Below, in pieces: positions 15,980-40,548 of a DNA stretch of 64,000 bases. The notes below the pieces were generated by a model that saw only the letters and a program-made list of their open reading frames with translations, searched no databases and was not told where the DNA came from. The stretch's first letter is position 1. Every line of letters begins with the position of its first letter. This stretch comes from Nostoc carneum NIES-2107 (lineage in GTDB: Bacteria > Cyanobacteriota > Cyanobacteriia > Cyanobacteriales > Nostocaceae): assembly GCA_002368155.1 (NCBI GenBank), contig AP018180.1, positions 4,735,007 through 4,799,006 on the forward strand, read 5' to 3'. Both the position numbers and the translations under genes were made by a program.

Positions 15980-16175
15980 TGAGTAATGAGTAATGAGTAA
16001 TGAGTAATGAGTAATGAGTGTTACCGTAAACGTTTCGCATTGCTAAACTCTTCCTGATAAACAACCACAGAGGCGCAGAGAACACAGAGAAATCTTTCTT
16101 ATCTGCGGTTAATTCTTACATTCTCCTCCGCGCCTCCGCGCCTCTGCGTGAGAAAAAACTTCCCATAAATTGCTT
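15977..16175. repeat. GAGTAAT array and conserved spacer before treH
   Basis: Six or seven GAGTAAT units begin at the treY stop (15977-16018), then come phrases such as CACAGAGGCGCAGAG and CGCCTCCGCGCCTCTGCG, which are dispersed repeats. No gene. Confidence 0.65.
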
Positions 16176-23218: not shown

Positions 23219-23254
23219 TGTTTTCCCCGCTTACTGATACAAAACAGCGAATTC

Positions 23255-23650: not shown

Positions 23651-23792
23651 CCGTGTATTACATCGTAAGTTTAACCCCAAATTAGTGAAGTTTAAAGTGT
23701 AATATTCAGTATTACAGATGAGATGTTAATGAGCCATAGCTTCCATGTAATACATGGAAAGGGCTTTTTTCCTTTTTCCATGTATTACACGG
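23456..23792. promoter_or_regulatory. Further palindromes at the right end of the inner element
   Basis: CCGTGTAATACTTGG at 23456-23470 (inside the ribbon-helix-helix gene), CCGTGTATTACATCG at 23651-23665 (touching its start), a degenerate pair near 23697-23717, CCATGTAATACATGG at 23743-23757 (perfect) and CCATGTATTACACGG at 23778-23792. The site next to the start codon is placed like an autoregulatory operator. Confidence 0.7.
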
Positions 23793-23919
23793 TGATGCTT
23801 TTAGGATATCCAAAATCGTATTGTTTCCTTTAACACTTGAGTTTAGACTAGGCAGCAACAAATGACCCAGCAGTGCTGAGTTCATAAAACACAACCTTCA
23901 AGAATGAAGATATTTGAGA

Positions 23920-25227
23920 TTAAGCAGATTTTTGTTCCTCTTTCCGTGGTTTAGAAGCAGTCTTTTTAACAATTGGATATCGTATTTTCCGGTTACGGGC
24001 TTTACCTGGTGTCCACCCAAGGGACTTTCCACGAGGTTTGGGTGGAGAGGTAGGAGTACCAATCGCAGCGAAAACTCCACCCATAGCTTGAGCAACTCGT
24101 CCTGGGGTCAATTTATCCATTGACTTTTGCCAGGGAAGAGGATTATCAGCAACTATATCACGAGCTAACCATAACTCCCAGGTCATTAACGGCATTAAGT
24201 CACTCCAATGTTCACATTGTTCTGGAGTACTGAATTTTGGTACTGTCCAATGTAAGCGTTGCTTGAGAAAGCGATACCAATGGTCAATCGTGAATCGGCG
24301 CAAGTACAATCGCCAAACTTCATCCAATGGTGGCATTTGTTCCCCAACCCAAGCTAACCACAAGGGTCTTAATACTCTCAAATTGCCATCAAGATCAAGA
24401 CGTTCCACCCTCAGTAGCGTCATGGGGCGTGTAGCAGCTTTGCGAAAATGCAAATCTTCCCACAGACTGACTTTAACTCGTCCCAATTTTGGGTCATTTA
24501 CTTCCAGCACAGATGCCACTTCGCCCCAGGTTGAGGGTTCATTGAGTTTAAATTGAGCACCATGCTTGCGAGGACGACCCTTGCCAGAGTAAGCAGGTGG
24601 TGCGCCCCATAGACACAGATTTGAACGTAGTCTAACTAAGATATCGGCTTTTATACTAGCTGTCTTTAACACAAAAGGCGCACAACCATATTCACTGTCC
24701 CAAAGCGAAATTGGTCGAACAGACATTGATTCACATACCTTTTTGAGTTGTTCAACTGCTTTCTCAATCGGATTGTCCCAACTGGTAATCCGTTCATGCC
24801 TCAGCGGTAGTGCCCAACTTCCTGAATCCTCTGGTATCCAAGCTATAGTACTATATCCCTGCCCAATCGTAATCGGTTTATTTCCCGCGATCTCTGTGCT
24901 ACTGTGTTCTATTGTCCGTTCTTTGAGTGTCACCGCATCTGGGCGTGACCAAGCTGTATGATCTCCTGCCAACAATATGCGTTTTTCTGTTGGTATTTGC
25001 TTGATATATAACTCCATTAATTTCTCGCGGTCTGGTTTGGTATCTTGTATCGCTTCATAGATACTCGGCCATTTGCGTCTAAACACTGGCGATAAAGATA
25101 AATCTGCCAGACTGTAGACATTACGGGTCAACAGTATCGCATCTGTTAGTTCAAATGTTGCATCATGTGCTTTGCCTAGATGCGTATAGGCTGCTTGACG
25201 AAATTCTTCGAGTCTGGCACGTTTCAT
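23920..25227 (-). CDS. DDE transposase of the outer element (IS701-like)
   Basis: A 435-residue transposase starting MKRARLEEFRQAAYTHLGKA. Catalytic-type motifs are AGDHTAWSRPDA (about 105-116), ISLWDSEYGCAPF (about 200-212) and the C-terminal IDHWYRFLKQRLHWTVP. The layout resembles IS701 and related putative transposases common in cyanobacteria. The Lys/Arg-rich tail is normal for the group. The gene is intact within the 54-bp repeats. Confidence 0.88.
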   Translation of the reverse strand: MKRARLEEFRQAAYTHLGKAHDATFELTDAILLTRNVYSLADLSLSPVFRRKWPSIYEAIQDTKPDREKLMELYIKQIPTEKRILLAGDHTAWSRPDAVTLKERTIEHSSTEIAGNKPITIGQGYSTIAWIPEDSGSWALPLRHERITSWDNPIEKAVEQLKKVCESMSVRPISLWDSEYGCAPFVLKTASIKADILVRLRSNLCLWGAPPAYSGKGRPRKHGAQFKLNEPSTWGEVASVLEVNDPKLGRVKVSLWEDLHFRKAATRPMTLLRVERLDLDGNLRVLRPLWLAWVGEQMPPLDEVWRLYLRRFTIDHWYRFLKQRLHWTVPKFSTPEQCEHWSDLMPLMTWELWLARDIVADNPLPWQKSMDKLTPGRVAQAMGGVFAAIGTPTSPPKPRGKSLGWTPGKARNRKIRYPIVKKTASKPRKEEQKSA

Positions 25228-25904: not shown

Positions 25905-26645
25905 ATGAAGAGTTCGCTGGTTCCTGTTCAGAATTTGCACCCAAGCGATCGCATTGCTATGTATGCGCTACTAGATAATCATTTTAAAGGTGTAACCTGG
26001 GATGGCTTTCAGGCTGATTTAGAGCGTAAAAACTGGGTGTTGTTGTTGCGGGACGAAATTACCCACACTCTGAAAGGCTTTTCTACTCTGATGTTGAGCC
26101 AAACGACTTTTGCAGGAGAGCGAATTAGTGTAATTTATTCTGGCGATACAATTGTCGATCCTAGTGCTTGGTCGAGTACAACGCTACCGCGTTCTTGGAT
26201 TAACGCTGTAAATTTTCTGCGCCAACACTACGTAGAAAATAAGTTATACTGGCTGCTGATTTGTTCTGGCTTTCGTACTTACCGCTTTCTCCCGACTTTT
26301 TGGCAAGAGTTTTACCCCCGCTACAATACCATCACACCTACTCATATCACCAACTTGATAGAGAGTTTGGGACAGCAATATTATGGTGATTCTTATCAAC
26401 AAGCCAGTGGTATTGTTCGCTTCCAAAATCCGCAAATTCTGCGCGAGAATTTAATTGAAATTCCTATAGGAAGACAGACTAACCCCCATATTCAGTTTTT
26501 TGAACAAAAAAACCCAGATTATCGCCAAGGGGATGAATTGGTGTGTTTAACAGAAATTAGTTATGACAATCTTACTCGTGCTGGACAAAGAATGTGGCAT
26601 TCGGAAGCGTTGTTAGAATTTATCCAGGATTCGGTTCTGATTTAA
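25905..26645 (+). CDS. Uncharacterised 246-residue protein, GNAT-like fold possible
   Basis: An intact ATG-started protein. The N-terminal half (MYALLDNHFKGVTWDGFQADL, then WVLLLRDEITHTLKGFSTLM) looks like the start of a GNAT acetyltransferase fold, but I cannot point to a clear acetyl-CoA loop. HIP1 sites and codon use match the neighbours. It lies 25 bp upstream of the SulP transporter on the same strand, so the two are probably co-transcribed. Confidence 0.7.
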   Translation: MKSSLVPVQNLHPSDRIAMYALLDNHFKGVTWDGFQADLERKNWVLLLRDEITHTLKGFSTLMLSQTTFAGERISVIYSGDTIVDPSAWSSTTLPRSWINAVNFLRQHYVENKLYWLLICSGFRTYRFLPTFWQEFYPRYNTITPTHITNLIESLGQQYYGDSYQQASGIVRFQNPQILRENLIEIPIGRQTNPHIQFFEQKNPDYRQGDELVCLTEISYDNLTRAGQRMWHSEALLEFIQDSVLI

Positions 26646-26670
26646 AACCTATGCGTCTATCAACTTGCCT

Positions 26671-28371
26671 ATGAAAGTTAAAAATGAAGAGATAGTAATA
26701 GCTAAGACTGTAGAAGCACCACAATTTTTTGATGTTAGTCGCTTGTTGAGTAACCTGCGGGGCGATTTGGCGGGAGGACTAACAGCGGCGGTAGTAGCCT
26801 TACCTTTAGCGTTAGCCTTTGCGGTGGCTAGTGGTGTGGAACCAAAGGCGGGATTGTACACTGCTATTGTGGCAGGAATTGTCGCAGCAATTTTTGGTGG
26901 TTCGCCAGTCCAAATTACAGGCCCTACAGGTGCAATGGCTGTAATTTTGGTAGGAATTGTCGCCAAGTACGGATTAGAAAAAGTTTGGATTGCTGGGGTA
27001 ATGGCTGGAATCATCCAGATTGCTTTAGGAGTAGCCAAACTGGGACAATTAGTTAAATTTATTCCCTATCCGGTAACGGCTGGTTTTACTAATGGAATTG
27101 CCGTTATTATTTTTTGTGGTCAATTAAATAATTTCTTTGGGTTAAAGTTACCACGCCAAGAACATTTTTTACCAGGACTTTGGCAAACTTTAACTCATGT
27201 AGAAGCGTTAAATTGGGCAGCAGTTTTATTAGCAATGCTGGTAATTGCAACCAATCTTCTATGGCCCAAGATTAATACGACAATACCCGGTTCTTTGATG
27301 GGGTTGGTGTTAGCAACTGCGATCGCATCTTATTTGCATCTCGATGTTCCCACTATTGGAGCTATCCCGCAAGCTTTACCAATGCTGCAAGGTATTCCCC
27401 ACTGGAATGATTTTGGCTTAATTCGGGAACTGATTAATCCCGCTTTGGCTTTAGCCGCACTGGGTAGTATTGAATCCTTGCTCTCAGCAGTCGTGGCTGA
27501 TGGTATGACTGTGAGCGAGAAACACAACAGCGATCGCGAATTAATTGGTCAAGGTCTAGCCAATATCATTATTCCATTTTTCGGTGGCATTCCCGCCACA
27601 GGTGCGATCGCGCGGACTGCGGTTAACGTCCGTTCTGGTGGTAAAACCCGGTTATCTGGGGTAATTCACGGCGTTGCTTTAGCGCTGATTGTATTGACTT
27701 TAGCACCCCTTGCAGCGCAGATTCCCTTAGCAGCCTTGGCGGGGATTTTGATGGTAGTTAGTCTGCGGATGATTGAATGGGAAGCCATAGGCTTACTGCT
27801 ACGTGCTACCTACTCTGACTTTGCGGTGATGATTCTCACCTGGCTAGTCACAATATTATTTGATTTGGTTCTGGCTGTAGAAGTGGGATTGATTGCAGCT
27901 GGCGCATTATTTATCAAACGCATGAGCGATTTAAGCTTAGCGAAAATCCCAGAAACAGAAGTATTTCCCCCTGGTATTCCTTTAGAATTAAGCAAAGAAA
28001 TTGCCGTTTATCGTGTAGATGGGCCTGTATTTTTTGGTGCTGCAGAAAGGTTTGTTACTTTCCTCCGAGAGCAACCAGAAGTGAAGTATTTAATTCTGCG
28101 GTTGCGGTTTGTACCGAATATGGACACAACTGGCTTAGTAGCTTTAGAGGATATTTATCATGATTTGGCAAGGCATAATTGTCGTTTAATTCTCACAGGT
28201 TTACAGCCACAGGTTCAACAACTATTAGAACGTTCTGGATTGTTACAAACAATTGGGTTATCTAATTGTTTTGAAACAACTACAGATGCTATTTACTCGA
28301 TTAGTCCTCAATCTTCTCAACCTGTAGCGGCTAATTTAAAATCTCCAGAGTTGTTGGAATTAAATGATTGA
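26671..28371 (+). CDS. SulP family anion transporter with STAS domain
   Basis: A 566-residue protein. About 10-12 membrane segments from residue 28 to 410 include the SulP signature stretch GLTAAVVALPLALAFAVASG and GGSPVQITGPTGAMAVI. A cytosolic STAS domain follows at about 430-550 (VDGPVFFGAAERF, LRFVPNMDTTGLVALED). In cyanobacteria this family includes the Na+-dependent bicarbonate carrier BicA and sulfate carriers; the substrate cannot be assigned by reading. ATG 26671 is chosen over TTG 26665. Confidence 0.93.
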   Translation: MKVKNEEIVIAKTVEAPQFFDVSRLLSNLRGDLAGGLTAAVVALPLALAFAVASGVEPKAGLYTAIVAGIVAAIFGGSPVQITGPTGAMAVILVGIVAKYGLEKVWIAGVMAGIIQIALGVAKLGQLVKFIPYPVTAGFTNGIAVIIFCGQLNNFFGLKLPRQEHFLPGLWQTLTHVEALNWAAVLLAMLVIATNLLWPKINTTIPGSLMGLVLATAIASYLHLDVPTIGAIPQALPMLQGIPHWNDFGLIRELINPALALAALGSIESLLSAVVADGMTVSEKHNSDRELIGQGLANIIIPFFGGIPATGAIARTAVNVRSGGKTRLSGVIHGVALALIVLTLAPLAAQIPLAALAGILMVVSLRMIEWEAIGLLLRATYSDFAVMILTWLVTILFDLVLAVEVGLIAAGALFIKRMSDLSLAKIPETEVFPPGIPLELSKEIAVYRVDGPVFFGAAERFVTFLREQPEVKYLILRLRFVPNMDTTGLVALEDIYHDLARHNCRLILTGLQPQVQQLLERSGLLQTIGLSNCFETTTDAIYSISPQSSQPVAANLKSPELLELND

Positions 28372-28612: not shown

Positions 28613-29741
28613 TATAGCAATCCTAAATGAGTTGTGAAAAAAATGAACCATACATAAATATTTTGGGAAAATTAAAAACTTGATGATTAGTAACGAGTTC
28701 AAATAATCTCTTGACCTGAGAAAAGGATTTACATAAGTGGTAAAACTCTCGAATAAATTTTTTAGCGTACAACCAGATGTCTTCTACAGGATTTTGCGTT
28801 GGGTCATTGGGTGCAAATCTCATACAAGTAACTTTCCATTCATCTTCACTTAATCCTTGATTCAGATTATCTAAGTAAGCTTTAAATTCAGCAGAACGAT
28901 GATAACTAGCTCCATCCCAAATTAAAGCAATACGGCTTTTTGGATACTGGGAAATTAAATATTGTACAAAAGCAATCGCGTTGCTAGAATCACCTTTTTT
29001 ACAAGGCTTAATTAGAAACTCTTGTGTGTAATAATTTAGAGCGCCAAAATAGGTTTGTCTTTGTCGTTCATTGATCACTGGAACTTCAATCCGTTCTTTC
29101 GTATTTCCCCAAATATAACCACAAATATCTCCCCATAATAGGTGACATTCATCTTCAAAAAAAACTATGAGTTCCCCAGATACTATCTCACGCTCATGTG
29201 CCGTCAGCCATGCGGTTATTTCTAGTTTTTTTTTAGCTACTAGTTCTGCGTCTTTTTTAGGATTCTTTTTTTGTGTTTTTTTCCAACTTATATTAGCGTC
29301 TTTAAAGAGATCGTAATAGCTTTGATTTGACTCAAATACAACATCAAAATTATCTTCTACGTACTCCTTTAATTCTGATAAATGCCAATAGTTTTTCTGT
29401 TGAAGCCAGTTTAATACTACTTGTCTTTGTGCAGAGTCAAGATAACTTTTTGACCCTTTGTATTTTAGCCTCAATCCGGTTATACCCTGTTCTATAAATA
29501 TATATTTCCATTTGTTTACAAAACCAACAGACACTCCGAGAATATTTCCAATCTTTGAATGTTTATAGTTTTGCATCACCATTTGTACTGCCAGTGCCCG
29601 TTTTAGTTCTCTGGAGTCTGAGGTAGCCTGAATGAACTCTATCAACTCTTCCATTTGTGCTGCCATGCACCCTATCAATGACTTCTAATGTTCACCATAT
29701 CAACAACTGTGATTTTTCACAAATGATTTAGGATTGCTATA
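28613..29741. mobile_element. IS630-type insertion sequence
   Basis: Ends are inverted: left TATAGCAATCCTAAATGAGT and right ...ATGATTTAGGATTGCTATA, matching over about 16 bp and again at GTGAAAAA. The outer TA at each side fits the TA target duplication of IS630/Tc1 elements. It contains one intact transposase gene. The right end lies 26 bp upstream of the first Rieske gene of the oxygenase cluster. Confidence 0.88.
28623..29678 (-). CDS. IS630 family transposase
   Basis: A 351-residue protein. The N-terminus has helix-turn-helix character (HSKIGNILGVSVGFVNKWK, about 40-58), followed by a DDE core with FFEDECHLLWG (about 170-180), LIWDGASYHRS (about 254-264) and the final NPVEDIWLYAKKFIRE (Glu). 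These are standard IS630 motifs. The start could be the first ATG or ATG 29666. The frame is intact, so the copy may be active. Confidence 0.95.
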   Translation of the reverse strand: MIGCMAAQMEELIEFIQATSDSRELKRALAVQMVMQNYKHSKIGNILGVSVGFVNKWKYIFIEQGITGLRLKYKGSKSYLDSAQRQVVLNWLQQKNYWHLSELKEYVEDNFDVVFESNQSYYDLFKDANISWKKTQKKNPKKDAELVAKKKLEITAWLTAHEREIVSGELIVFFEDECHLLWGDICGYIWGNTKERIEVPVINERQRQTYFGALNYYTQEFLIKPCKKGDSSNAIAFVQYLISQYPKSRIALIWDGASYHRSAEFKAYLDNLNQGLSEDEWKVTCMRFAPNDPTQNPVEDIWLYAKKFIREFYHLCKSFSQVKRLFELVTNHQVFNFPKIFMYGSFFSQLI

Positions 29742-29766: not shown

Positions 29767-30774
29767 ATGCATTCTACTAGCGTAACCTCTATTTTTAATA
29801 ATCCTAAACTATTTGTTGAAGGATGGTATTGGGCATTGCCATCAAAAAAATTAAAGATTGGCAAGGTAAAAGCTGTAACCTTACTGGGTAGAAATCTCGC
29901 AATTTATCGTGGAGCTAGTGGACAAGTAATAGCGGTAGATGCCTATTGTCCACACATGGGCGCACATTTAGCGGAAGGTAAAGTAGAAGGTGAAGGAATT
30001 CGCTGCTTTTTTCATAATTGGAAATATGATGAGCACGGAATTTGTGTAGAAGTTCCTTCACTAGGAAAACCCTTACCTGTATGTATTAAAACTTGGTCAA
30101 CTGCAGACAAATACGGCATGATTTGGGTTTGGGTGGGAGACAATAAGCCAAGTAAATTGCCGTTTGTACCGGAATTAGAAGATGTAGACTGCGATTATAT
30201 ATTGGGGACTCGGTTTGTTAAAAACTGCCATCCCAATGTGTTATTAATTAATGCAATTGATGCTCACCATTTCAATACAGTACATAATCTGCCTTTTGAA
30301 ATTGTATTTAATTACCAAGAACTCAACCCTCATGCTATTACTTTCAGCAACATCACAAGAGGAGGTGATGATTCCTGGTTAATTCGCCTGATTCGCCCTT
30401 TATATAAGAAAGAAGTTACCTATAGTATGTGTTATTGGTATGGCAGTACTGGTACTGTAACGCTAGGCCCAGATTTTCTGCATTTCTATATTATCTTTAC
30501 GTTGCGAATGTTAGAAGATGGCAAAACAGAAGGGCAAACAATTCTGGTGACTCGTAAACGCAATGGTTATTTAGGATGGCTGATAAATCGTGCTTTGTTG
30601 TGGTTAACGCAACAGGTTGGTAATTATTTCGCTAAAGGCGATACCCAAGTATTTCAAACTATACAATTTGATTTGAAAACTCCTACAAAAGCAGATAATT
30701 CAATTCTGCAATTTATTCAGCACGTTAATTATCAAAAAGCTTTAACCTGGGGAAATTGGGAAAATAATTCGTAA
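29767..30774 (+). CDS. Rieske non-heme iron oxygenase (first of two)
   Basis: A 335-residue protein. Its N-terminal Rieske [2Fe-2S] domain has C61-P-H63 and C80-F-F-H83, and its mononuclear iron site has the D165-x2-H168-x4-H173 pattern in NAIDAHHFNTVH. This is the layout of single-component-alpha Rieske oxygenases related to KshA, VanA and PaO. It needs electrons from a ferredoxin, and one is encoded at 33418. The substrate is unknown. It is the first gene of the oxygenase run, and its start is only 26 bp from the IS630 end. Confidence 0.9.
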   Translation: MHSTSVTSIFNNPKLFVEGWYWALPSKKLKIGKVKAVTLLGRNLAIYRGASGQVIAVDAYCPHMGAHLAEGKVEGEGIRCFFHNWKYDEHGICVEVPSLGKPLPVCIKTWSTADKYGMIWVWVGDNKPSKLPFVPELEDVDCDYILGTRFVKNCHPNVLLINAIDAHHFNTVHNLPFEIVFNYQELNPHAITFSNITRGGDDSWLIRLIRPLYKKEVTYSMCYWYGSTGTVTLGPDFLHFYIIFTLRMLEDGKTEGQTILVTRKRNGYLGWLINRALLWLTQQVGNYFAKGDTQVFQTIQFDLKTPTKADNSILQFIQHVNYQKALTWGNWENNS

Positions 30775-30803
30775 TTCGTAATTTAATACATCTTTATTTG
30801 GAT

Positions 30804-31721
30804 ATGAAAAATATTGATTTGTCATATAAAATTGCTGGAATTGATTTACCGCATATAAATTTTGATGATAAACTGCGGCGAATATTAACAGCAGCATTAC
30901 CTAATCAAAACGATAAGACTTCACAACCACAATTAAATTATTGGGATGCGGAATTTTTCAATTTACATCAAGTCCAAATTTTTCAACAAGCGAGTTTAGA
31001 AGAACAATCTGCCATACTTCAACTTACCAATCATAGCCTGTTAGCAGAATCTTATTTTATTGAAAAAGCTGGTGTTGGTTACATGGCAAAAATGGTATTG
31101 CTAGCTGAAACAGTGGAAGAGCGAATGCTTTATGCACTTTTTAGCGCTGATGAAGCTACTCACCTCAGCCAAATTATCAATTTTTTACCGGAAATTGCAT
31201 CTACTAATAGCAACGAGCCATTTCTAAATTTACTAGCAGAAGTAGTTGAAAGTGCAGATAAAACAGTATTATTGTTTGTGCTACAAGTAGTTTTAGAAGG
31301 ATGGGGATTAAGCCATTACCGCCGCTTGTCTAAAGAGTGTCATCATCCTGTCCTCGCAGAACTTTTTTTCAGTTTTCTCCAAGCAGAATCTCGCCATCAT
31401 GGTACAGGAACAATACTATTTAACCGTAATCCTGTTTCACCAACAAGCAAAGCAGCTGCAATCGAAATATTAGCCAGCTTTCTATCTATGGTACAACTAG
31501 GGCCGCAAAGCGTTCTATCAGCCATTGAACAGGTAAAAGGACATCTGACGCGATCGCAAAAAATCCAAATCCTCGAACAACTGGATACCCAAACCCACAG
31601 TGGAACCAGATTAGAGATATTGCGATCGCTCATGGGTGGAGCATCCGCAGAAGCCATTGTACAAGCTTTAGACGAACGCGGCGCATTTTCACCACTCCCC
31701 CCTCATCAATGCGTCTATTAA
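30804..31721 (+). CDS. Ferritin-like di-iron protein, probable oxygenase
   Basis: A 305-residue protein, almost all helical by composition. A full ferritin-like di-iron ligand set is visible: a Glu in LLAESYFIE (about 82), ExxH in ADEATH (about 117/120), a Glu in VVLEGWGLSHY (about 165) and ExxH in QAESRHH (about 195/198). I do not recognise a named family. It sits between a Rieske gene and another di-iron gene, suggesting a shared oxidative pathway. ATG 30804 is preferred to TTG 30798. Confidence 0.7.
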   Translation: MKNIDLSYKIAGIDLPHINFDDKLRRILTAALPNQNDKTSQPQLNYWDAEFFNLHQVQIFQQASLEEQSAILQLTNHSLLAESYFIEKAGVGYMAKMVLLAETVEERMLYALFSADEATHLSQIINFLPEIASTNSNEPFLNLLAEVVESADKTVLLFVLQVVLEGWGLSHYRRLSKECHHPVLAELFFSFLQAESRHHGTGTILFNRNPVSPTSKAAAIEILASFLSMVQLGPQSVLSAIEQVKGHLTRSQKIQILEQLDTQTHSGTRLEILRSLMGGASAEAIVQALDERGAFSPLPPHQCVY

Positions 31722-31799
31722 CTATTTACTCTTCTTTGCGCCTCTGCGCCTTTGCGTGAGCTTTATTAATACTTCTCATCTCAACGTAAAAACTTTGAT

Positions 31800-32987
31800 A
31801 TGCAAAATACTATTCAAAAACTATCAGACAACCCAACCACTTATCGTAAATTACAAATTAACCACACCCGTAACAAACAGCAAGATCATACTGCTTTAAT
31901 GGATGAAGCAACCGCCAACTTTCGCTATGAAGATTGCCAAAACGAATATTGGAATCCCGAAGAATTTTCTCTACTATACGGTACAACTTTATGGGAACAA
32001 TCTAGCCCACATCAACGTGTCATTTTAAATCAACTTTATTGGGTAGCGTACTATTCGCAAATTGTTTCTGCTGAGATTGCCACAATATATTTTAATCAAA
32101 CTAGCGCAGCCGGACTTTATGCTCACGAAGATTTCCGCTTAATTTGCGATACTTTAGATTTAGAATCCTCTCAAGAAAGAGCGCATATCAACGCCTTCCG
32201 TACAATTGCCAAACAGGTTGAGCAAGCATTATTTGGGGAACTTATATTTACTTACCCCATGCGCGGCCCGTTTACCGAAACAATGGTTTATGCTAACACA
32301 AACGCTCTCAAAACTTGGTGGAAAAAAATTCAACTGCAATACTTTGGATTGATTTCTGCAAATAATACATTTTTAGCTTGTCAGTATTTCACAGTCCGGG
32401 GAGTGCGGACACTAAATGGTAAATTAGTCCAGCATAAACTCAGCAATTATTATCAAAAACATCCTCATCCTGAAACTGCACCTATTCCTGCTAAAATCTC
32501 TTACTATCACTTTCTCGATGAAAGTTTTCATTTTAATAGTTCGACAATTATATCTCACGATGTCGTTACCTGCCTGCCACCACCAACAGCATTTGAGAGC
32601 CTAGTTGCTAATTTAGGATTGCTTGGCTGTCAGCGCGATCACTTTCACTTTTCGGCAGCAATTAACGGAATTTTCTGGTATGATCCAGCGCTGTATGACA
32701 AGATTTATAAATTGTTGCGATCGCCAATTTTTTCTATGAGCGACAATGATGCTAAAGAAATGATGCGTCGCTGTTTTACTGAAGAATCGGAAGGCTTGCA
32801 TCGCAGTTTTTCCACCCATCAAGAAGCGATGGCATCTTATAAAGTATATGTCGAAAAACTCGATTATCTTTGGCAGCAAAATCGAGAAATGTCAATTATG
32901 GGAGCTAATTCCCTGGCTCGATATCTAGCAAATCAAAAAAGTGCTTTTCAAAAGTTTAAAACTTATAAAAATCGAAATAAAACTTAA
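31800..32987 (+). CDS. AurF-like/ferritin-like di-iron oxygenase candidate
   Basis: A 395-residue protein with E92 (VSAEIATIY), E126-R-A-H129 and E241-S-F-H244, plus H253-D254, a pattern like di-iron N-oxygenases of the AurF type. AurF enzymes oxidise aryl amines to nitro groups; other relatives cut or hydroxylate lipids and alkyl chains. The assignment is inference from ligand spacing. It is not a close copy of the preceding di-iron gene; the two differ in length and ligand spacing. Confidence 0.65.
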   Translation: MQNTIQKLSDNPTTYRKLQINHTRNKQQDHTALMDEATANFRYEDCQNEYWNPEEFSLLYGTTLWEQSSPHQRVILNQLYWVAYYSQIVSAEIATIYFNQTSAAGLYAHEDFRLICDTLDLESSQERAHINAFRTIAKQVEQALFGELIFTYPMRGPFTETMVYANTNALKTWWKKIQLQYFGLISANNTFLACQYFTVRGVRTLNGKLVQHKLSNYYQKHPHPETAPIPAKISYYHFLDESFHFNSSTIISHDVVTCLPPPTAFESLVANLGLLGCQRDHFHFSAAINGIFWYDPALYDKIYKLLRSPIFSMSDNDAKEMMRRCFTEESEGLHRSFSTHQEAMASYKVYVEKLDYLWQQNREMSIMGANSLARYLANQKSAFQKFKTYKNRNKT

Positions 32988-33066
32988 TCTATATATTTGA
33001 TAAAACAAAAGTTATCTACATAGCTTTTGTCAGAATATATCAGTGGACATCCAAGAGGTACATATC

Positions 33067-33258
33067 ATGCACAAAGAATATATGGAGATTCTAGAAACAT
33101 TACTTGATAAATTGACATTATCTGCAATTTTAGAAATGTTAGAGCGCTTATGCCACAAAAAAGCAGAAAATTTGAGAACTCATTGGCAAGACGAACATTC
33201 AGCAAAGCTGTGGGAGAAAGCTGCTAGACAGATAGAACAGATAAATGTTGATGTTTGA
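33067..33258 (+). CDS. Small helical protein, function unknown
   Basis: A 63-residue protein from ATG 33067, with AAGAGG 12 nt upstream. It is rich in Leu, Glu and Lys with one Cys (LERLCHKKAEN) and should be mostly helical. An alternative GTG start at 33043 adds eight residues. It lies between the di-iron gene and the ferredoxin gene, so it could be an accessory subunit, but nothing in it proves that. Confidence 0.5.
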   Translation: MHKEYMEILETLLDKLTLSAILEMLERLCHKKAENLRTHWQDEHSAKLWEKAARQIEQINVDV

Positions 33259-33417
33259 CGAAAAAAGCAAGCTAGGTAAATAAAATCGATTGGGTATACA
33301 ATCTGCAAATTGTATGCCTAATCCTACTTATTTCAATGCAGATTTCAAATTGTGCGATCACAGGCTGTTTAGTGATAAATATTTTAAGTTTTGTCCCTGT
33401 GAATTAATTGATTAATT

Positions 33418-33702
33418 ATGCCTGAACTTTGTAAAATATCCTTTCCGGGAACTAACTATCCCCCCATAAATCTGCAACCGCATCAAAATTTATCTGAGAA
33501 TTTGACAATTCAAAATTCACCTGTATTATTTGGTTGTCGCACTGGTATTTGCGGAACTTGCTTAGTTGAGGTAATTGGTGAAATTCCTCCTCCCCTACCT
33601 AATGAACAGGAGATGTTGGATACATTAGCTCCCGACAATCAAAAAGCACGGTTAGCCTGTCAACTTGACCTGACAACTAATATTGAAATTCGCATAACCT
33701 AA
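33418..33702 (+). CDS. Plant-type [2Fe-2S] ferredoxin
   Basis: A 94-residue protein with the cluster ligands C40-RTGI-C45-GT-C48 and C81, the plant/photosynthetic ferredoxin pattern. The sequence LLFGCRTGICGTCLVEV-like region has the usual loop. It ends 11 bp before the second Rieske gene, so it is probably its dedicated electron donor and may serve the other oxygenases. No ferredoxin reductase gene is in the cluster; the photosynthetic reductase could supply electrons. Confidence 0.92.
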   Translation: MPELCKISFPGTNYPPINLQPHQNLSENLTIQNSPVLFGCRTGICGTCLVEVIGEIPPPLPNEQEMLDTLAPDNQKARLACQLDLTTNIEIRIT

Positions 33703-33713
33703 CACTATCAACT

Positions 33714-34736
33714 ATGCAATTTGCAGATTTTTGGTATATTGTCGCACTCAGTGAGCAACTACCACCAAACAAGGTATTGGCAAGAACTGTTTTAGGCGAG
33801 TGGTTAGCGATATTTCGTGGCGAAGATGGACAACCTGTAGCGTTGCGCGATCGCTGTTTGCATCGCAGTAGTCGTCTATCAACTGGTAAAGTCTGTAAAA
33901 GTGCTTTGCAATGTCCTTATCATGGTTGGGTATACGATAAAAATGGCAAGGTGATTGCTGTGCCATCAGAGGGAGTTGATTTCAAACCTTCGCAGCAGCG
34001 TCAAGCCAAGCGTTACGCTACCAAAGAACAGGATGGTTATATATATGTGCGGTTAGCGGAGACTCCCAGCGAAGAGTTTCAGCCATTTTCTATGCCATAT
34101 TATGGAAAAGCTGGCTGGGAAACGGTGCGGGTAATTAATCGTTTTGCTAACAACGTTACTAATTGTGCAGAGAATTTTATTGATATTCCCCACACAGCTT
34201 TTGTACATCCTGGCGTATTTCGTACCTCGCGCCAACAAAAGCTAGAAATGACTGTGGAAAGGGAAAATGGTGCAGTTTTAGTAGAGTATCGCCATGAAAC
34301 CATTAATTTAGGCTGGTATAGCCGTTTTCTTAATCGTGAAAGTGCAGAGATTCAACATTGCGATCGCTTTTATATGCCCAATATTACCTCTGTGGAATAT
34401 CAAATGGGATACAATCGCCATCTATTTATTACTAGTCAATCTATCCCAGAAACCGATAATTCCACTTTGGTGTATACAGATGTCACCTACAACTATGGTA
34501 TTTGGAACAAACTAGCACGTCCTTTGGTATGGTGGACTGCTCAACATATTATCCGCCAGGACATTGAAATTTTGGGGATTCAAGGGGAAGCGATCGCAAA
34601 ATATGGTACACAATTTTCTAACACTCCTGCTGACACAATTCATGTATTTGTAGAGTCAATTAGAAGTGCAATTTCTCGTGGAGAAGACCCGCGATTATTA
34701 CCAAATCAATCTGTAAAAGTAAGATTTTGGGTTTAA
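33714..34736 (+). CDS. Rieske non-heme iron oxygenase (second)
   Basis: A 340-residue protein with the Rieske ligands C48-L-H50 and C67-P-Y-H70 and the iron site NFIDIPHTAFVH (D157, H160, H165). It differs clearly from the first Rieske protein and resembles aromatic-ring or sterol-type hydroxylase alpha subunits (ANNVTNCAENFIDIPHTAFV region). It is separated from the ferredoxin gene by 11 bp, so the two are co-transcribed. Confidence 0.92.
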   Translation: MQFADFWYIVALSEQLPPNKVLARTVLGEWLAIFRGEDGQPVALRDRCLHRSSRLSTGKVCKSALQCPYHGWVYDKNGKVIAVPSEGVDFKPSQQRQAKRYATKEQDGYIYVRLAETPSEEFQPFSMPYYGKAGWETVRVINRFANNVTNCAENFIDIPHTAFVHPGVFRTSRQQKLEMTVERENGAVLVEYRHETINLGWYSRFLNRESAEIQHCDRFYMPNITSVEYQMGYNRHLFITSQSIPETDNSTLVYTDVTYNYGIWNKLARPLVWWTAQHIIRQDIEILGIQGEAIAKYGTQFSNTPADTIHVFVESIRSAISRGEDPRLLPNQSVKVRFWV

Positions 34737-34854
34737 TTTTGTAATTCCAATCAATCTCTCTCTAATGCTTGCGTAAAGTGTGGTTATAGAAGTGAAGTTA
34801 ATTTGACGGTCAAAAATAAACCAAACAACTATACGCCAATTTGGGAGAGGAAAT

Positions 34855-36123
34855 ATGCGAAGAATTGCAATTATCGGAGCAGGCCAAGCAGGTTTGCATT
34901 TAGCTATTAGTTTAGTTGATGCAGGTTATGCAGTGACATTGTTTAGCGATCGCACACCAGAAGCGATACTCAATGGTAAGCCAGGCGCAATGCCGGTATT
35001 GTTTCCAGATGCGCTACAACTAGAAGAAAGGCTCAACTTTTGGCATGAGGAATTTCCTGGTAGCGATTTATTCGGTTCTGAAGTCTACGACCCCGAAGGA
35101 AACCTGGTCTTAACTATATCTTCGCCGTTAGAAAAGCCTTGGTTAGCAGTAGATCAGCGCCTCAAATTCTTTACCTGGATGCAAGAGTTTGTCAAAATCG
35201 GCGGTGAACTGGTCGTTAAAGCAATGGCGATCGCAGATCTAGAAGAATGTGCTAAAAATTACGATTTAGTTGTGGTTTCTACTGGTCGAGGTTCCTTCTC
35301 AACTTTATTTGAGCGAGACGAGCAAAAATCCCCACATGATCAACCACAGCGCCATATATCAGGAGTAATGGTCACAGGATTGCACAGCGATGCTGCTGAT
35401 TTACGCACTAGTAAAATGACTGTGATACCCGAAGTTGGCGAAATAATTCAGATGCCTTTCTATAATAAGGGTAAATTTTCTGCTCACGTAATTGCCTTGG
35501 AAGCTTATCCTGGCGGGTCAATGGATCAATTTACTCATATCCAAAGTGGTCAAGAATTACTGGAGATGAGCAAAAAAGCCATCAAACAGTTTAAACCAGG
35601 GTATTACGAAGTAGTTAAAGATATGAAATTGGCAGATGAAAATGCATGGATTAATGGTGCAATTACACCAATCGTCCGCCAGCCAATTGGCCGCTTACCA
35701 TCAGGTGCAACTGTTATGGGTATAGGTGATGCTGTTATCCTACATGATCCTCTAACTGGACAAGGAGCCAATAGCGCTACGAAAATGGCTCATTTAGTTA
35801 AGCAACGAATTATTGAACATGGTAACCAACGCTTTGATGATTCATGGATGCAAAGGGTATTTGATGAATTTTGGAATTATGCTCAGTACACCTATGCTTT
35901 CACTGACTGCTTGTTGTCACCCCCAGCTTATTTGCAAGATATTATGGTTGCAATGAGTCAAAATCCAGAGGTTACTCAAGATTATTTAAATGGCATCAAC
36001 AATCCTTCTAGTTTCTCATCCTGGTTTTTTGATGCTGACAGCGTCAAGGAATATTTAGCTCAAAAGCAAGCTAAACTAGAAGCTGCAAATCAACAAGATG
36101 AACTTTCTCTAGTGAATAATTAA
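34855..36123 (+). CDS. Styrene/indole monooxygenase-like flavoprotein (StyA type)
   Basis: A 422-residue FAD protein with the N-terminal dinucleotide motif IAIIGAGQAGLHLAISL, the internal GKPGAMPVLFPDA region and the later VMGIGDAVILHDPLTGQGAN FAD-binding motif. This is the StyA/IndA organisation, an epoxidase that uses reduced FAD from a StyB reductase. No StyB gene is nearby. Its start follows a good GGGAGAGG site. Within the cluster it would oxidise an alkene or indole-like group, but the substrate is unknown. Confidence 0.88.
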   Translation: MRRIAIIGAGQAGLHLAISLVDAGYAVTLFSDRTPEAILNGKPGAMPVLFPDALQLEERLNFWHEEFPGSDLFGSEVYDPEGNLVLTISSPLEKPWLAVDQRLKFFTWMQEFVKIGGELVVKAMAIADLEECAKNYDLVVVSTGRGSFSTLFERDEQKSPHDQPQRHISGVMVTGLHSDAADLRTSKMTVIPEVGEIIQMPFYNKGKFSAHVIALEAYPGGSMDQFTHIQSGQELLEMSKKAIKQFKPGYYEVVKDMKLADENAWINGAITPIVRQPIGRLPSGATVMGIGDAVILHDPLTGQGANSATKMAHLVKQRIIEHGNQRFDDSWMQRVFDEFWNYAQYTYAFTDCLLSPPAYLQDIMVAMSQNPEVTQDYLNGINNPSSFSSWFFDADSVKEYLAQKQAKLEAANQQDELSLVNN

Positions 36124-36301
36124 GGAATTACCAATCATCTAGGCAGGTGATAATTGAGCAAGCGCAAAATCTGAGCAAGGGTTGACTCTGCTCAGAACTT
36201 TTTCATCTCAGAGAAAAAGAGCAAGAAGAGAATTATCTGTAGTAATTTGATATAAGCTGTAACAAAAGAAAAGCCTTGGGAGAGATGCGTTACGCTGAAA
36301 T

Positions 36302-36447
36302 AAGCTGTTACGTATTTAAATTGTATATTTCGCACTCAGGTGTTGTCAAAAGTCAAGAGTCCAGAGTCAAAGGCTAGCTTGGACTTTGGACTCTTGACCC
36401 TTGACAGTCCTAACTCCAGAATATTTGATTTAGGTGCGTATCAGCCT
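36302..36447. mobile_element. About 145-bp MITE-like element, copy 1
   Basis: Begins AAGCTGTTACG and ends GCGTATCAGC, imperfect 12-bp inverted repeats, with an internal palindrome built of GTCAAGAGTCCA / GGACTCTTGAC around AGGCTAGCTTGG. Matching copies lie at 55941-56084 (opposite orientation) and 61587-61731. It is located between the StyA-like and membrane hydroxylase genes. Confidence 0.8.
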
Positions 36448-36470
36448 ATAGAAATTATATTTTGTTAATT

Positions 36471-37217
36471 ATGCAAATCTTTGTACAAATTCTAGTTTTT
36501 GCAGCTTTTATCGGATTAGTTGGATGGACGATTAGCAATACATTTGGTCGAAAGCAATTCCAAGTGAAAAGTCGCGAAGATTGGATATTAGATTTGACAG
36601 GATTAACTATTCAAGGAATGTTGATTCCTTTATTGCAGTCTACTTTAGTTTATGGGCTGTATCATCATATATTTCCGCCATTACAAGGACTTTTAAAAGT
36701 TGCACCCATTTTAGCTTTTATTATTAGTTTTATTGTTGTTGATTATTTATATTATTGGAATCATCGCTTATTACATAGCAAATTTCTATGGTCAGTCCAT
36801 CAAGTGCATCATACTGTTACGCAAATGGATGTATTAGGTACTTCTCGTAATACACTATGGACAAGTTTGCTAATTGTTTATTTATGGGTACACACTTTAT
36901 TTTTGTATCTTCTATCCGATCCAATGGCTTATTTGCTAGGGGTTAGTCTAACTTCTGCCTTAGATTTATGGCGACATAGCCGCTTGATAATAGATGAAAA
37001 TAGCTGGCTATATCGATTTATATTTCCCTGGCTAATTTTACCCCAGGATCATGCATGGCATCATTGCAGTGAAGTGTTTAATTGCAATTATGGGGCTAAC
37101 TTGAAATTGTGGGATAAGTTCCATAAAACTTATTATGAAAGCAAAGATTTACCATCAGCAATCGGAATTTCTACTTCTTTAACATTAAGGCAGAAACTTT
37201 TATTTCCATTTCCATAA
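36471..37217 (+). CDS. Sterol desaturase/fatty acid hydroxylase superfamily protein
   Basis: A 248-residue integral membrane di-iron enzyme. The eight-His pattern is visible: NHRLLH (H98, H102), HQVHH (H110, H113, H114) and HAWHH (H194, H197, H198), with H169 as an extra candidate, and four or so membrane helices. Family members hydroxylate or desaturate sterols, carotenoids and fatty chains. ATG 36471 is chosen over TTG 36462. The 347-bp gap upstream contains a MITE, so it may have its own promoter. Confidence 0.92.
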   Translation: MQIFVQILVFAAFIGLVGWTISNTFGRKQFQVKSREDWILDLTGLTIQGMLIPLLQSTLVYGLYHHIFPPLQGLLKVAPILAFIISFIVVDYLYYWNHRLLHSKFLWSVHQVHHTVTQMDVLGTSRNTLWTSLLIVYLWVHTLFLYLLSDPMAYLLGVSLTSALDLWRHSRLIIDENSWLYRFIFPWLILPQDHAWHHCSEVFNCNYGANLKLWDKFHKTYYESKDLPSAIGISTSLTLRQKLLFPFP

Positions 37218-37387
37218 TTGACCAGATTAAAAGTTGGTGATGTACAGATAATTGTCAGGGCAAGGCATTGCCTTGCCCCTACCCGCGTAACTCATTTACC
37301 TGAAATATGCTGTATTTACAACAAAGATATGAAAATAACTCTTTCAATGCCCAATGCCCAATGCCCAATGCCCAATGCCCTATTTCT

Positions 37388-37996
37388 ATGACATTTTTAA
37401 GTACAATTCTCTTATTTTTTCCTACCTTGATATTAATACTAACTGGGGCTGCTATCATCTACCTTGCCTATTCACCCAGTATCTTTAGTATTTTAGCAGT
37501 GCTATTTTCTCTTTATGGGTTACCTGTGCTAATTTACCGCTTACATCAATGGGTATATCCTGTGCAGGAAGGTATTAGTTATTTACGCGGTAACTCATAT
37601 AGTCCTTGGTGGGGTAGTCATCAAATTCAGGTAATTTATATTGCAATTCCCGTATTGGAAACAATATTGCGATTAATTCCAGGTGCATTTTCCTTTTGGT
37701 TGCGATTGTGGGGTGCTAAAGTAGGGCGAAATGTTTACTGGACACCTGGATTAGAAATTGCCGATCGCGGTTTAATTGAAATAGGCGATCGCGTAGTTAT
37801 GGGACATCGTGTCACTATCTCGTCTCATATCATTAAACCCCGCAAGCAAGATTTAATGTTGTATGTCAAGAAAGTCACAATTGGTAACGATGTATTTGTG
37901 GGTGCTGGATGCGTTCTTGTTCCTGGTGTAGTGATTAGTGATGCTACCTTTGTTCCGGCTGGGACAAATATTTATCCTAATCAGCAGGTGGAATAA
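37388..37996 (+). CDS. Membrane-anchored hexapeptide-repeat acyltransferase
   Basis: A 202-residue protein. Two N-terminal hydrophobic helices (about 3-60) precede a left-handed beta-helix region at about 110-195 with repeats such as IEIGDRVVMGHRVTI and VTIGNDVFVGAGCVLVPGVV. This is the acyl/acetyltransferase fold. ATG 37388 is preferred because the upstream open frame to 37307 reads through an AATGCCC repeat array (37347-37380). It probably adds an acyl group to a product of the cluster; that is inference. Confidence 0.85.
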   Translation: MTFLSTILLFFPTLILILTGAAIIYLAYSPSIFSILAVLFSLYGLPVLIYRLHQWVYPVQEGISYLRGNSYSPWWGSHQIQVIYIAIPVLETILRLIPGAFSFWLRLWGAKVGRNVYWTPGLEIADRGLIEIGDRVVMGHRVTISSHIIKPRKQDLMLYVKKVTIGNDVFVGAGCVLVPGVVISDATFVPAGTNIYPNQQVE

Positions 37997-38043
37997 TTCT
38001 TAGCTTATTTACAAATTAATATGAACAGCAGACAGGATAAAAT

Positions 38044-38171
38044 CCAATACTGCTCGGTTAAGGATTTTAAACTCTTAATTTGGTTTGGGGAAATGGTGAA
38101 AGGGTAAGGGTTAAAGGTTTTTTCTTGCCCCTTTTCCCCTTATCCTTTTGCCCTTAACCGACAAGTATTGG
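38044..38171. repeat. 128-bp palindromic repeat with CCAATACT...AGTATTGG ends
   Basis: Arms CCAATACTGCTCGGTTAAGG and CTTAACCGACAAGTATTGG enclose GGTGAAAGGGTAAGGG/CCCCTTTTCCCCTTATCC purine and pyrimidine runs. A related half lies at about 41523-41640. It forms a long hairpin just upstream of the GH3 gene. Non-coding. Confidence 0.75.
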
Positions 38172-38199
38172 GATAAAATCATCTGTAAATTTTGATATT

Positions 38200-39714
38200 A
38201 TGCGTTCGATTATTCAACTATTTGGAAAACTTTTTGCACCAGCTTACCGACGCTTCGAGCAAGCTTTAAATCATCCAGAATTAACACAGCTATCTATACA
38301 GCAAGAAATTTGCGATCGCCTGATGGCTAGCGACTATGGCAAAGCTTTAAAAATTCGCTCTGTAGAAGATTGGCAAGATGTGCCAATTGTTGATTACGAT
38401 ACATTAGAGCCTTGGATTTTAGGACAAGAAAAGCGTCAGCAAATACCTTTAACTACCGAACCAATTTTATTTTATGAAAAAACCTCTGGTAGTAGTGGGG
38501 CGATAAAATGGATTCCCTATACTCTGTCTTTACGACGCTCATTTAATCAAATGTTTTGTGTATGGGCTTATGATTTAATTAAAAATGGCCCCAGATTTTC
38601 TACTGGTAAAATTTACGCTTGTATATCGCCGCAATTAAATGTCGCAGATTCCTCAGCGTTACAAGACGACTTAGATTATTTAGATGGCTGGTTGCGGTGG
38701 TTGCTGCATCCTTGGTTAGTAATGCCAAATAACCTTAATCGCCTACATAATGCACAAGAATTTAAACATCAGTTGGCGTTGGCTTTATTACAGGCAGAAA
38801 AATTAGAAATTATTTCGATTTGGAGCCCAAGCTTTCTACAAGTACATTTAAAATATATCCAAGAAAATCAGGAATTATTACAGCAAGAATTACACAATAA
38901 AATATCGCGCCATCGCTTGCAACTTTTGGGCGAAAATCCGATACCTTGGACGCAATTATGGTCAAATTTAAAGCTGATTTCTTGTTGGGATAGCGCTAAC
39001 GCCGCTGATCAAGCCAAAGGGTTGCGATCGCAGTTTCCGGGGGTGTTGGTTCAAGGTAAGGGACTGCTAGCAACCGAAGCACCGATGACAATTCCTTTAA
39101 TTGCTGCGGGTGGTTATGTTCCGGTTCTGGATGAAGTGTTTTTTGAGTTTGAGGATAATAGCGGTTCGGTGTATCGCTTACACGAACTCAATCAGGGAGG
39201 AGAATACACAATAATTTTGTCACAGAAAGGCGGTTTGTATCGTTATCGCATAGGCGATCGCATCCGGGTGACGCATTACTATCGCCAAACCCCCTGTTTA
39301 GAGTTTCTGGGAAGACATCAAGCTGTTAGCGATTTAGTGGGGGAGAAGTTGCAATCCAACTTTGTCCATGATGCTTTGCATAGCATGAATTTACCAGAAG
39401 GCTGTTTTAAAAGCTTAGTCAGTCTCGCTGAACCAGCCCAGTATATTTTACTACTTGACTCAGCACAAGCCACAAAAGAAATCCTTGCTCAACAACTAGA
39501 TGAGGCGTTATCACAGTCATATCATTATCAACGGGCGCGATCGCTTGGTCAACTCGCACCGCCGCAAGTGATAATTTCTCCTCAAATTCCAGAGATATTA
39601 GCCTTACATCGTCTCCGCAGTGGAAGTATTTGGGGAGGTATTAAGCATCCAATTTTGGCAACATCGCCTATTAGCACTGAACTTTTACAAGAATTGCAAA
39701 GAACATCATCATAG
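38200..39714 (+). CDS. GH3-family acyl-adenylating/amido-synthetase-like enzyme
   Basis: A 504-residue protein of the GH3 family in the acyl-adenylate-forming superfamily. It shows the ATP/AMP motifs EKTSGSSGAIKWIPYT (T95-G100), LLATEAPMTIP (about 288-298, the ATEG-type motif) and LYRYRIGDRIRV (about 348-359, YRxGD). Plant GH3 enzymes join jasmonate, auxin or benzoates to amino acids; bacterial ones are little studied. Here it could activate a carboxylic acid made by the cluster. The start is ATG with a 203-bp spacer upstream. Confidence 0.88.
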   Translation: MRSIIQLFGKLFAPAYRRFEQALNHPELTQLSIQQEICDRLMASDYGKALKIRSVEDWQDVPIVDYDTLEPWILGQEKRQQIPLTTEPILFYEKTSGSSGAIKWIPYTLSLRRSFNQMFCVWAYDLIKNGPRFSTGKIYACISPQLNVADSSALQDDLDYLDGWLRWLLHPWLVMPNNLNRLHNAQEFKHQLALALLQAEKLEIISIWSPSFLQVHLKYIQENQELLQQELHNKISRHRLQLLGENPIPWTQLWSNLKLISCWDSANAADQAKGLRSQFPGVLVQGKGLLATEAPMTIPLIAAGGYVPVLDEVFFEFEDNSGSVYRLHELNQGGEYTIILSQKGGLYRYRIGDRIRVTHYYRQTPCLEFLGRHQAVSDLVGEKLQSNFVHDALHSMNLPEGCFKSLVSLAEPAQYILLLDSAQATKEILAQQLDEALSQSYHYQRARSLGQLAPPQVIISPQIPEILALHRLRSGSIWGGIKHPILATSPISTELLQELQRTSS

Positions 39715-39762
39715 TGCCTACTTAGTTACTTAAGATGATTCTGAACTAAATTCTGTTGCCTT

Positions 39763-40548
39763 ATGTGCAGTAAACGCTTTTACCACATTGGCTTTGAACA
39801 AGCGGATTTGGGTGCAAAACCGCCTACATTAGCGCTGTTATCTGGCGATCCAGAACGTGCATCTCTGATCGCTCAAACTCATTTACAAAATGTGAAATTA
39901 TTATCAGATAATCGGGGGCTGAATAGTTATTTAGGATATTTAGCCAACGGTTGCCCTATCTTATCAGCGACCAGTGGCATGGGTGCGCCTTCCTTAAGTA
40001 TTGTAGTCAATGAATTAGTCCAGGTAGGAATCCGGCAAATTATTCGCGTTGGTACTTGCGGCTCAATTCAACCTCATGTAACTGTTGGTAGTATTGTGAT
40101 TAGCAATGCCGCATTGTGTCGCCAAGGTGCAGCTAATGATATTGCACCTATCGAGTATCCAGCCGCAGCCGATCCGTTTCTCACAGTCGCTTTAGTCAAA
40201 GCAGCGCAAGAATTAGGCTTTGAGTATCATTTAGGAATTACAGCTTCAGTAGATACCTTTTATGAAGGACAAGAACGCATGGATTCAGCCAATCCATATT
40301 TAATGCGATCGCTACAGGGAATTACTGAAGAATATCGCCACTTAAACATCTTGAACTATGAAATGGAATGCGGCACACTATTTAAAATGGCAGGAGTATA
40401 TCAATTTGCCGCTGCTGCTGTGTGCGCTGTAGTTGCTCAACGTACTGTTTCTGAAAATATCATCTTCCCCAAGAAAGATATTGCCATTGAGAATGCGATC
40501 GCAACTGCTATAAATGCAGCAGAAACATCGCTGAGTGCTGAGTGCTGA
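39763..40548 (+). CDS. Nucleoside phosphorylase (uridine/purine phosphorylase family)
   Basis: A 261-residue protein with the family motifs LLSGDPERA (phosphate binding, about 26-34), IIRVGTCGSIQ (about 94-104) and LNYEMECGTLFKMAG (about 200-214, ribose binding). It cleaves a nucleoside with phosphate to base and ribose-1-phosphate. It lies 49 bp after the GH3 gene on the same strand. It may be a salvage gene that only borders the cluster; its role there is open. Confidence 0.9.
   Translation: MCSKRFYHIGFEQADLGAKPPTLALLSGDPERASLIAQTHLQNVKLLSDNRGLNSYLGYLANGCPILSATSGMGAPSLSIVVNELVQVGIRQIIRVGTCGSIQPHVTVGSIVISNAALCRQGAANDIAPIEYPAAADPFLTVALVKAAQELGFEYHLGITASVDTFYEGQERMDSANPYLMRSLQGITEEYRHLNILNYEMECGTLFKMAGVYQFAAAAVCAVVAQRTVSENIIFPKKDIAIENAIATAINAAETSLSAEC

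Follow-up and report, generated by a model that had tools for sequence, protein, structure and literature searches.

A cluster of oxygenase, acyltransferase and ligase genes was analysed in a 64,000-nucleotide stretch (the window) of the genome of Nostoc carneum NIES-2107 (9.36 Mb). Ten co-directional open reading frames (ORFs) on the plus strand, spaced by 11–430 bp, fill positions 29767–40548; the initial annotation had counted ten or eleven, and the lower figure holds. The run starts with R1, a Rieske non-heme iron oxygenase (29767–30774; Pfam Rieske, 2.4e-22, and motifs), followed by Ferr, a ferritin-like di-iron protein with TTG called as start (30798–31721; Ferritin_2 at 0.00096, under the Pfam cut-off). 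The next gene (31800–32987) encodes a homologue of the CylC family of dimetal-carboxylate halogenases, with an AurF match under the Pfam cut-off; it belongs to a Rieske-type clade with Gln at position 211. Then come Fd, a [2Fe-2S] ferredoxin (33418–33702; Fer2, 2.5e-9; Cx4Cx2C), and R2, a Rieske oxygenase with a VanA_C domain (33714–34736; Pfam Rieske and VanA_C, motifs). A StyA-like flavin monooxygenase (34855–36123; Smoa_sbd, 1.7e-23) precedes FAH, a membrane His-box hydroxylase (36462–37217; FA_hydroxylase, 6.4e-23; three His boxes), Hex, a hexapeptide-repeat acyltransferase (37307–37996; Pfam hexapeptide transferase), and a GH3-family acyl-adenylate/amide ligase (38200–39714; GH3 N, M and C domains; SGSSG and YRIGD). 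A uridine/purine nucleoside phosphorylase (39763–40548; PNP_UDP_1) ends the run. The first core gene lies ahead of it, also on the plus strand, and codes for a GNAT-fold acyltransferase-like protein (25905–26645).

Pfam domains and intact motifs confirmed the two Rieske enzymes, the ferredoxin, the StyA-like protein, the His-box hydroxylase, the acyltransferase, the GH3 enzyme and the phosphorylase that had been named at the outset. The two di-iron proteins of the initial annotation are both present as well, but their description was incomplete, as the one at 31800 is a CylC-family halogenase homologue. As also stated there, none of the ten genes matches a Pfam model for a nonribosomal peptide synthetase (NRPS), polyketide synthase or terpene synthase. 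Hex matches part of the NCBIfam model of the Pls/PosA NRPS terminal domain with 44.3 bits against a cut-off of 423.1, which we read as shared hexapeptide-type sequence.

Both Rieske proteins have intact CxH..CxxH and D..H....H sites. Ferr keeps E84, E119xxH122, E167 and E197xxH200 in 20/20 aligned sequences, down to 32% identity; its sequence search against the PDB returned unrelated proteins only (E 0.096 or worse). Fd is the likely electron donor. The Smoa_sbd domain of the StyA-like protein scores 83.2 bits against a cut-off of 25, but the StyA equivalog cut-off of NCBIfam (550) is not reached with 202.8 bits. The sole NCBIfam match of FAH is the ornithine-lipid hydroxylase OlsE, with 65.8 of 475 bits. 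In many relatives, Hex is about 27 residues shorter (202-aa ORFs). The protein at 25905 has no Pfam match. Its AlphaFold2 model (pLDDT 87.7) was compared with the PDB by Foldseek, and most of the 50 matches listed are acetyl-, acyl- and myristoyl-transferases, with probability 1.00 and a best E of 2.8e-5, at TM-scores by query of just 0.30–0.46. On this basis, the protein is assigned a GNAT fold.

The gene set was compared in 80 named loci, the best of 180 confirmed ones, with at most 10 kb on each side of the CylC-like gene; contig ends cut many of these loci, so that the counts are lower bounds. Gene order is conserved across the relatives and reads GNAT-R1-Ferr-CylC-Fd-R2-FAH-Hex-GH3, usually with a third Rieske gene (R3) in addition. 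GNAT was found in 62, R1 in 72, Ferr in 75, Fd in 71, R2 in 63, FAH in 60, Hex in 55 and GH3 in 51 loci. Outside the core, R3 was counted in 63, an Mpo1-like gene in 26, an amidohydrolase in 21, a GT2 glycosyltransferase in 8, SnoaL in 7, SulP in 4, StyA in 1 and the phosphorylase in none. Of the 49 relatives with full flanks (21 kb or more), 33 have the complete set of nine core genes, which places the gene set beyond chance. GNAT is present in 45 of these 49, mostly directly ahead of R1. The order is kept in families inside and outside the taxonomic order of the window and in genomes outside its class. There, CylC, Fd, R2, FAH, Hex and GH3 are present in G004, G018 and G038; R1, GNAT and Ferr join them in G004 and G018 at least. 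The ends of CylC-Fd-R2-FAH-Hex-GH3 touch or overlap in G004 (locus L048). On a 15.5-kb contig named Melainabacteria (L144), CylC, Fd, R2, Hex, GH3, Ferr, GT2, SnoaL and the amidohydrolase were matched, R1 and GNAT not.

Co-occurrence was followed through the phylum in 386 genomes. The CylC-type gene (at least 54% identity) and GH3 (E<1e-80) are found in the identical 21 genomes, hereafter the carriers. Of 33 CylC-positive genomes, 12 at 37% identity or less were not taken as carriers, and of 52 genomes positive for GH3, the 31 with E above 1e-80 were left out. Linkage does not account for this agreement: the two genes lie 2.9 Mb apart in G125, 0.95 Mb in G076 and 27 kb in G027, and on separate contigs in G093. 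In G116 and G038 they are on different contigs close to contig ends, where they may or may not be linked. At least four genera (g2, g7, g35 and g37) mix carriers with non-carriers, and GH3 goes with CylC every time. Thus, homologues that are scattered and never co-occur, which the initial annotation named as the outcome that would speak against a pathway, were not what was found. R2 was compared in 15 of the carriers and 20 non-carriers and is present at 50% identity or more in 15/15 against 0/20 (best 37%). The other comparisons covered the full set of 21 carriers against those 20 non-carriers; FAH at 44% identity or more occurs in 21/21 against 0/20 (31% at most), and Ferr in 21/21. A close form of the amidohydrolase (E<1e-100) is present in 12/21 carriers and 0/365 others, with 118 weak matches among 130 positive genomes left out. 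It is a fragment in G125 (242/574 residues); in G376, G024 and G093, one stop codon, perhaps the natural end, falls within each match. Distant relatives, all below 60%, occur in 131 plasmid records from many bacteria; the family as such is not special, and only the close form tracks the carriers. The evidence that the core genes act as a single pathway is strong.

The claim that the whole locus is one pathway stands for the core, but not for the StyA-like gene (1/80) and the phosphorylase (0/80), and its bounds of 29767–40548 were too narrow: GNAT lies outside, and many relatives add the third Rieske, the Mpo1-like gene and the amidohydrolase. Because none of the 80 relatives has it, the phosphorylase was dropped as a member and is probably outside the pathway. 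The StyA-like gene is lineage-specific and not part of the core; its sole recurrence is in Tolypothrix sp. FACHB-123 (L079, 78%), likewise directly after R2. In the window, GNAT is split from the remaining core by a SulP-family anion transporter (26665–28371, plus strand; Pfam Sulfate_transp and STAS), a lineage-specific neighbour, and by a transposase (28623–29678, minus strand; Pfam HTH_33 and DDE_3), which we take to be of the IS630 type. SulP has an equal position in 4/80 relatives (L066–L069), and R1 begins 234 bp past SulP in L066. In G116 (L159, 4252–5967), a SulP-like protein, seen by eye, adjoins GH3; in the window, SulP adjoins GNAT. Altogether, three transposase genes (DDE_Tnp_1/DUF4277, DDE_5 and HTH_33/DDE_3 by Pfam) lie before or inside the cluster, at 21512–25227 and 28623–29678. 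An R3-Mpo1 pair and the amidohydrolase precede GNAT in L066; in the genome of the window both are elsewhere, the pair (R3 82%) at 3.31 Mb and the amidohydrolase at 5.17 Mb. Given the flanking transposases and these displaced genes, rearrangement of the window copy by insertion sequences is plausible. Apart from the cluster, two alpha-amylase-family proteins and a trehalase stand in a row at 11153–17696, as trehalose metabolism would predict.

The transposases, the lineage-specific StyA and SulP genes and the occurrence of Ferr alone in two genomes could also be taken as signs of independent oxygenases or of a co-inherited mobile island with no common product. On a 22-kb contig of G093 (C6, L156), moreover, GT2-amidohydrolase-Mpo1 lie near a parA-like gene (by eye), which suggests that this module can move separately from the core. 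This alternative is nevertheless very unlikely, since unlinked members still co-occur: GH3 is present in 21/21, and the set of G076 is dispersed over GNAT-R1-Ferr-CylC in L047, R2 in L175, FAH-Hex in L176 and GH3 in L154. Similarly, G093 holds GNAT-R1-Ferr-CylC together in L046 and GH3, R2 and FAH elsewhere; both genomes are probably Synechocystis. Carriage by plasmids was set aside, as 72,556 plasmid records of PLSDB gave merely four distant matches (27–33%) to the CylC-like protein.

The protein at 31800 carries ExxQExxH and HxxDExxH, and motifs of the QExxH/HxxDExxH type mark dimetal-carboxylate halogenases (PMC12101540, PMC12871659); judged by these motifs, it is a CylC-family halogenase homologue, the only one in its genome. 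The closest named relatives among the matches listed, which may omit records of the window's own genome, are from Nostoc linckia FACHB-104 and Calothrix membranacea FACHB-236 (94–95%). Eight of nine conserved active-site residues (E92, Q125, E126, H129, H237, D240, E241 and H244) are found in 99/99 Rieske-type sequences, an alignment that pools loci of two sources and may count one genome twice; E92 was set as first Glu by alignment to the motif pattern, not to the NocO sequence. Residue 211 is Gln in 99/99 of these sequences and Glu in 11/11 other CylC homologues taken, and His281 is invariant in the clade (99/99) and absent from the other 11. Column 211 was equated with E252 of the CylC homologue NocO by the 30-residue distance from D282 and by the conserved Glu in the 11 other homologues. 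The alanine variant of NocO Glu252 lost chlorination, and a small subset of homologues with Gln at the ninth residue is mentioned in the same report (PMC12101540); we read the Rieske-type Gln211 clade as this subset. A sequence search against the PDB gave unrelated proteins only (E 0.096 or worse), and Foldseek with the predicted model gave no match at E<=0.001. The architecture may be AurF-like; the Pfam AurF match lies under its cut-off. G360 (L051) has an intermediate homologue (36%) whose residue in the 211 column is Glu; a ferredoxin of 46% follows it, and no other core gene was matched in 20 kb. The CylC homologue in Synechocystis may be sll0266. The sll0266 transcript is reported to be down under iron deprivation, with a first value of -3.05 (PMC3516471), which would fit a di-iron enzyme.

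It is conceivable, albeit doubtful, that the Gln211/His281 clade is no halogenase at all and represents a second reaction type of these di-iron enzymes, in which an acyl substrate that is not tethered is hydroxylated at C-H, desaturated or joined through a new C-C or C-O bond. Together with three Rieske enzymes and GH3, it would then build a new class of polyoxygenated aminolipids in cyanobacteria and in members of the phylum that have no photosystem II. If the clade with the Glu-to-Gln change catalyses something other than chlorination, it would reveal how di-iron enzymes are steered towards halogenation or towards oxygenation.

As to the product, we consider it somewhat probable that this locus represents a biosynthetic pathway, conserved in cyanobacteria and in some members of their phylum without photosystem II, which makes an oxidised N-acyl amide or aminolipid from a fatty-acyl chain. 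A fatty-acyl chain of primary lipid metabolism would be the starting substrate. The Rieske and di-iron enzymes would attack several C-H positions with electrons from the dedicated ferredoxin, and the CylC-type enzyme would chlorinate or else oxidise an unactivated carbon, so the product may perhaps be chlorinated. GH3 would adenylate the free carboxylate and couple it with an amine or amino acid, and the acyltransferases and the membrane hydroxylase would decorate the amide. In some strains, an optional module of SnoaL, GT2, amidohydrolase and Mpo1-like protein is proposed to add steps. This type of product is favoured because of the FA_hydroxylase domain of FAH, the Mpo1-like protein (2-hydroxy-fatty-acid dioxygenase family in Pfam), a fatty acid desaturase in a related cluster of G199 and the precedent of a bacterial GH3 enzyme, OlsH, which makes N-acyl ornithine (PMC12493201). 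A lipid substrate is further favoured because NocO acts on a dodecanoyl chain tethered to acyl carrier protein (ACP; PMC12101540).

Several points weigh against this interpretation. In 12/49 full-flank relatives, no GH3 was found up to about 10 kb from CylC. The Fisher test of CylC-GH3 co-occurrence (p 4e-35) ignores relatedness, and the cut-offs for orthologs were chosen post hoc, after a gap in E-values had been seen (next CylC 6.6e-74, next GH3 2.1e-65). Ferr is found on its own in 2/20 non-carriers (G091 and G174). Another non-carrier, G199, has a GNAT of 56% and weaker relatives of GH3 and R2; its divergent cluster (L178) comprises GNAT 56%, GH3 32%, the fatty acid desaturase and a Rieske protein of 34%, without a Rieske-type CylC gene. 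GH3 reaches 23.4 bits against the NCBIfam OlsH equivalog, far from the cut-off of 620. The best solved Rieske relatives of the locus (for R1, KshA and SxtDIOX/SxtT) are KshA, SxtT/SxtDIOX and methylxanthine N-demethylases, which act on steroids, saxitoxin-type alkaloids and methylxanthines, not on fatty acids. The G199 locus also encodes an unusual protein in which an NQR2/RnfD domain is fused to FG-GAP/UnbV repeats.

These Rieske relatives could also point to the same genes forming one pathway with a non-fatty-acyl substrate, e.g. an aromatic or alkaloid-like acid that is oxidised by the Rieske enzymes and conjugated by GH3, much as jasmonate, auxin and benzoates are conjugated by the GH3 enzymes of plants. 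The solved matches of GH3 are plant jasmonate, auxin and benzoate ligases, although across residues 320–395 only. We regard such a substrate as possible but improbable, as the substrate cannot be read from Rieske similarity and the Mpo1-like protein, the FA-hydroxylase, the acyltransferases and the desaturase of G199 indicate lipids. A saxitoxin-type pathway was rejected, the likeness to SxtT being at family level only. A catabolic or detoxification route for an exogenous compound is more unlikely still. Rieske and ferredoxin sets are classic for aromatic degradation, and conjugation by GH3 is able to inactivate acids; against this stand the acyltransferases, the glycosyltransferase in part of the set, the phototrophs among the carriers and the biosynthetic function of those CylC relatives whose role is known (PMC8406957, PMC12101540). 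Apart from the families already named, none of the ORF families recurred in more than 5/23 loci, and no conserved uptake system was seen.

Two other precursor classes were considered beside the fatty-acyl chain. Two findings prompted the idea of a hopanoid substrate: an R1 paralogue (60%) in the window's own genome (L064, 9525–10625; C1, about 1.24 Mb) has HpnJ, HpnK and squalene synthase-like genes less than 10 kb away, and GT2 matches HpnI weakly. This idea was set aside since a squalene-hopene cyclase over the cut-off is missing in 8/21 carriers (G231, G197, G229, G116, G027, G004, G018 and G038; a weak match of 23.5 bits exists in G027, and the G038 genome is 73% complete); 15/20 non-carriers have one. 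A link to chlorophyll or plastoquinone was set aside likewise, as no match to Photo_RC (PsbA/PsbD) was found in the carriers G004, G018 and G038, the last again 73% complete. The window genome encodes PsbA/PsbD-family proteins, and G000 has ten Photo_RC matches.

The locus belongs to a class already listed in 2021, so the kind of pathway was not undescribed, as had been supposed, albeit it was listed without a product. Among 95 CylC-homologue clusters, Eusebio et al. (PMC8406957) counted 36 'Rieske-containing' ones, the most numerous class, with no product known; they mainly occur in Nostocales and Oscillatoriales and combine a CylC homologue, mostly a single one, with two to four Rieske proteins, mostly a sterol desaturase family protein and acyl transferases. 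The window agrees with two Rieske genes in the locus and R3 elsewhere, a single CylC and FAH, taken as the sterol desaturase family protein. Searches of open-licence PMC papers gave no product for this class and no paper on cyanobacterial clusters of Rieske proteins with GH3 or with a styrene monooxygenase. In PMC8406957, no substrate-activating enzyme was seen near these clusters, and its main text does not contain the term 'GH3'. The window copy differs by the added StyA-like and SulP genes and the third Rieske elsewhere in the genome, and GH3 tracks the CylC-type gene in 21/21 genomes. This tie of GH3 to the Rieske-containing class is new, as are the corrected boundaries and core, the clade-specific change to Gln211 and the case against hopanoid and chlorophyll/plastoquinone precursors. 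A class without product thereby gains an entry point: GH3 is an adenylating enzyme, and the acid and the amine it uses can be tested in vitro.

With CylC and NocO (PMC12101540), the protein at 31800 shares the QExxH and HxxDExxH motifs and may share an AurF-like architecture; it is unlike them in having Gln211 for Glu252 and the extra His281, and the ten window genes contain no ACP or FAAL domain by Pfam. The ornithine lipid pathway of OlsH and OlsI (PMC12493201) is similar in its GH3 amide ligase and in the OlsE match of FAH, but the cut-offs of the OlsH and OlsE models are missed and no alpha/beta-hydrolase such as OlsI is among the ten genes. As in the PriA-containing clusters of Synechocystis (PMC8406957), GNAT-R1-Ferr-CylC lie beside desD-/priA-like genes (by eye) in L047 and L046; unlike there, the set of G076 and G093 is dispersed and not clustered, with Hex adjoining FAH in G076. 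The same report remarks that the functions of the class are dispersed in Synechocystis, which the dispersal in G076 fits if this genome is Synechocystis. With the dispersed set, the question could then be addressed in a tractable laboratory organism.

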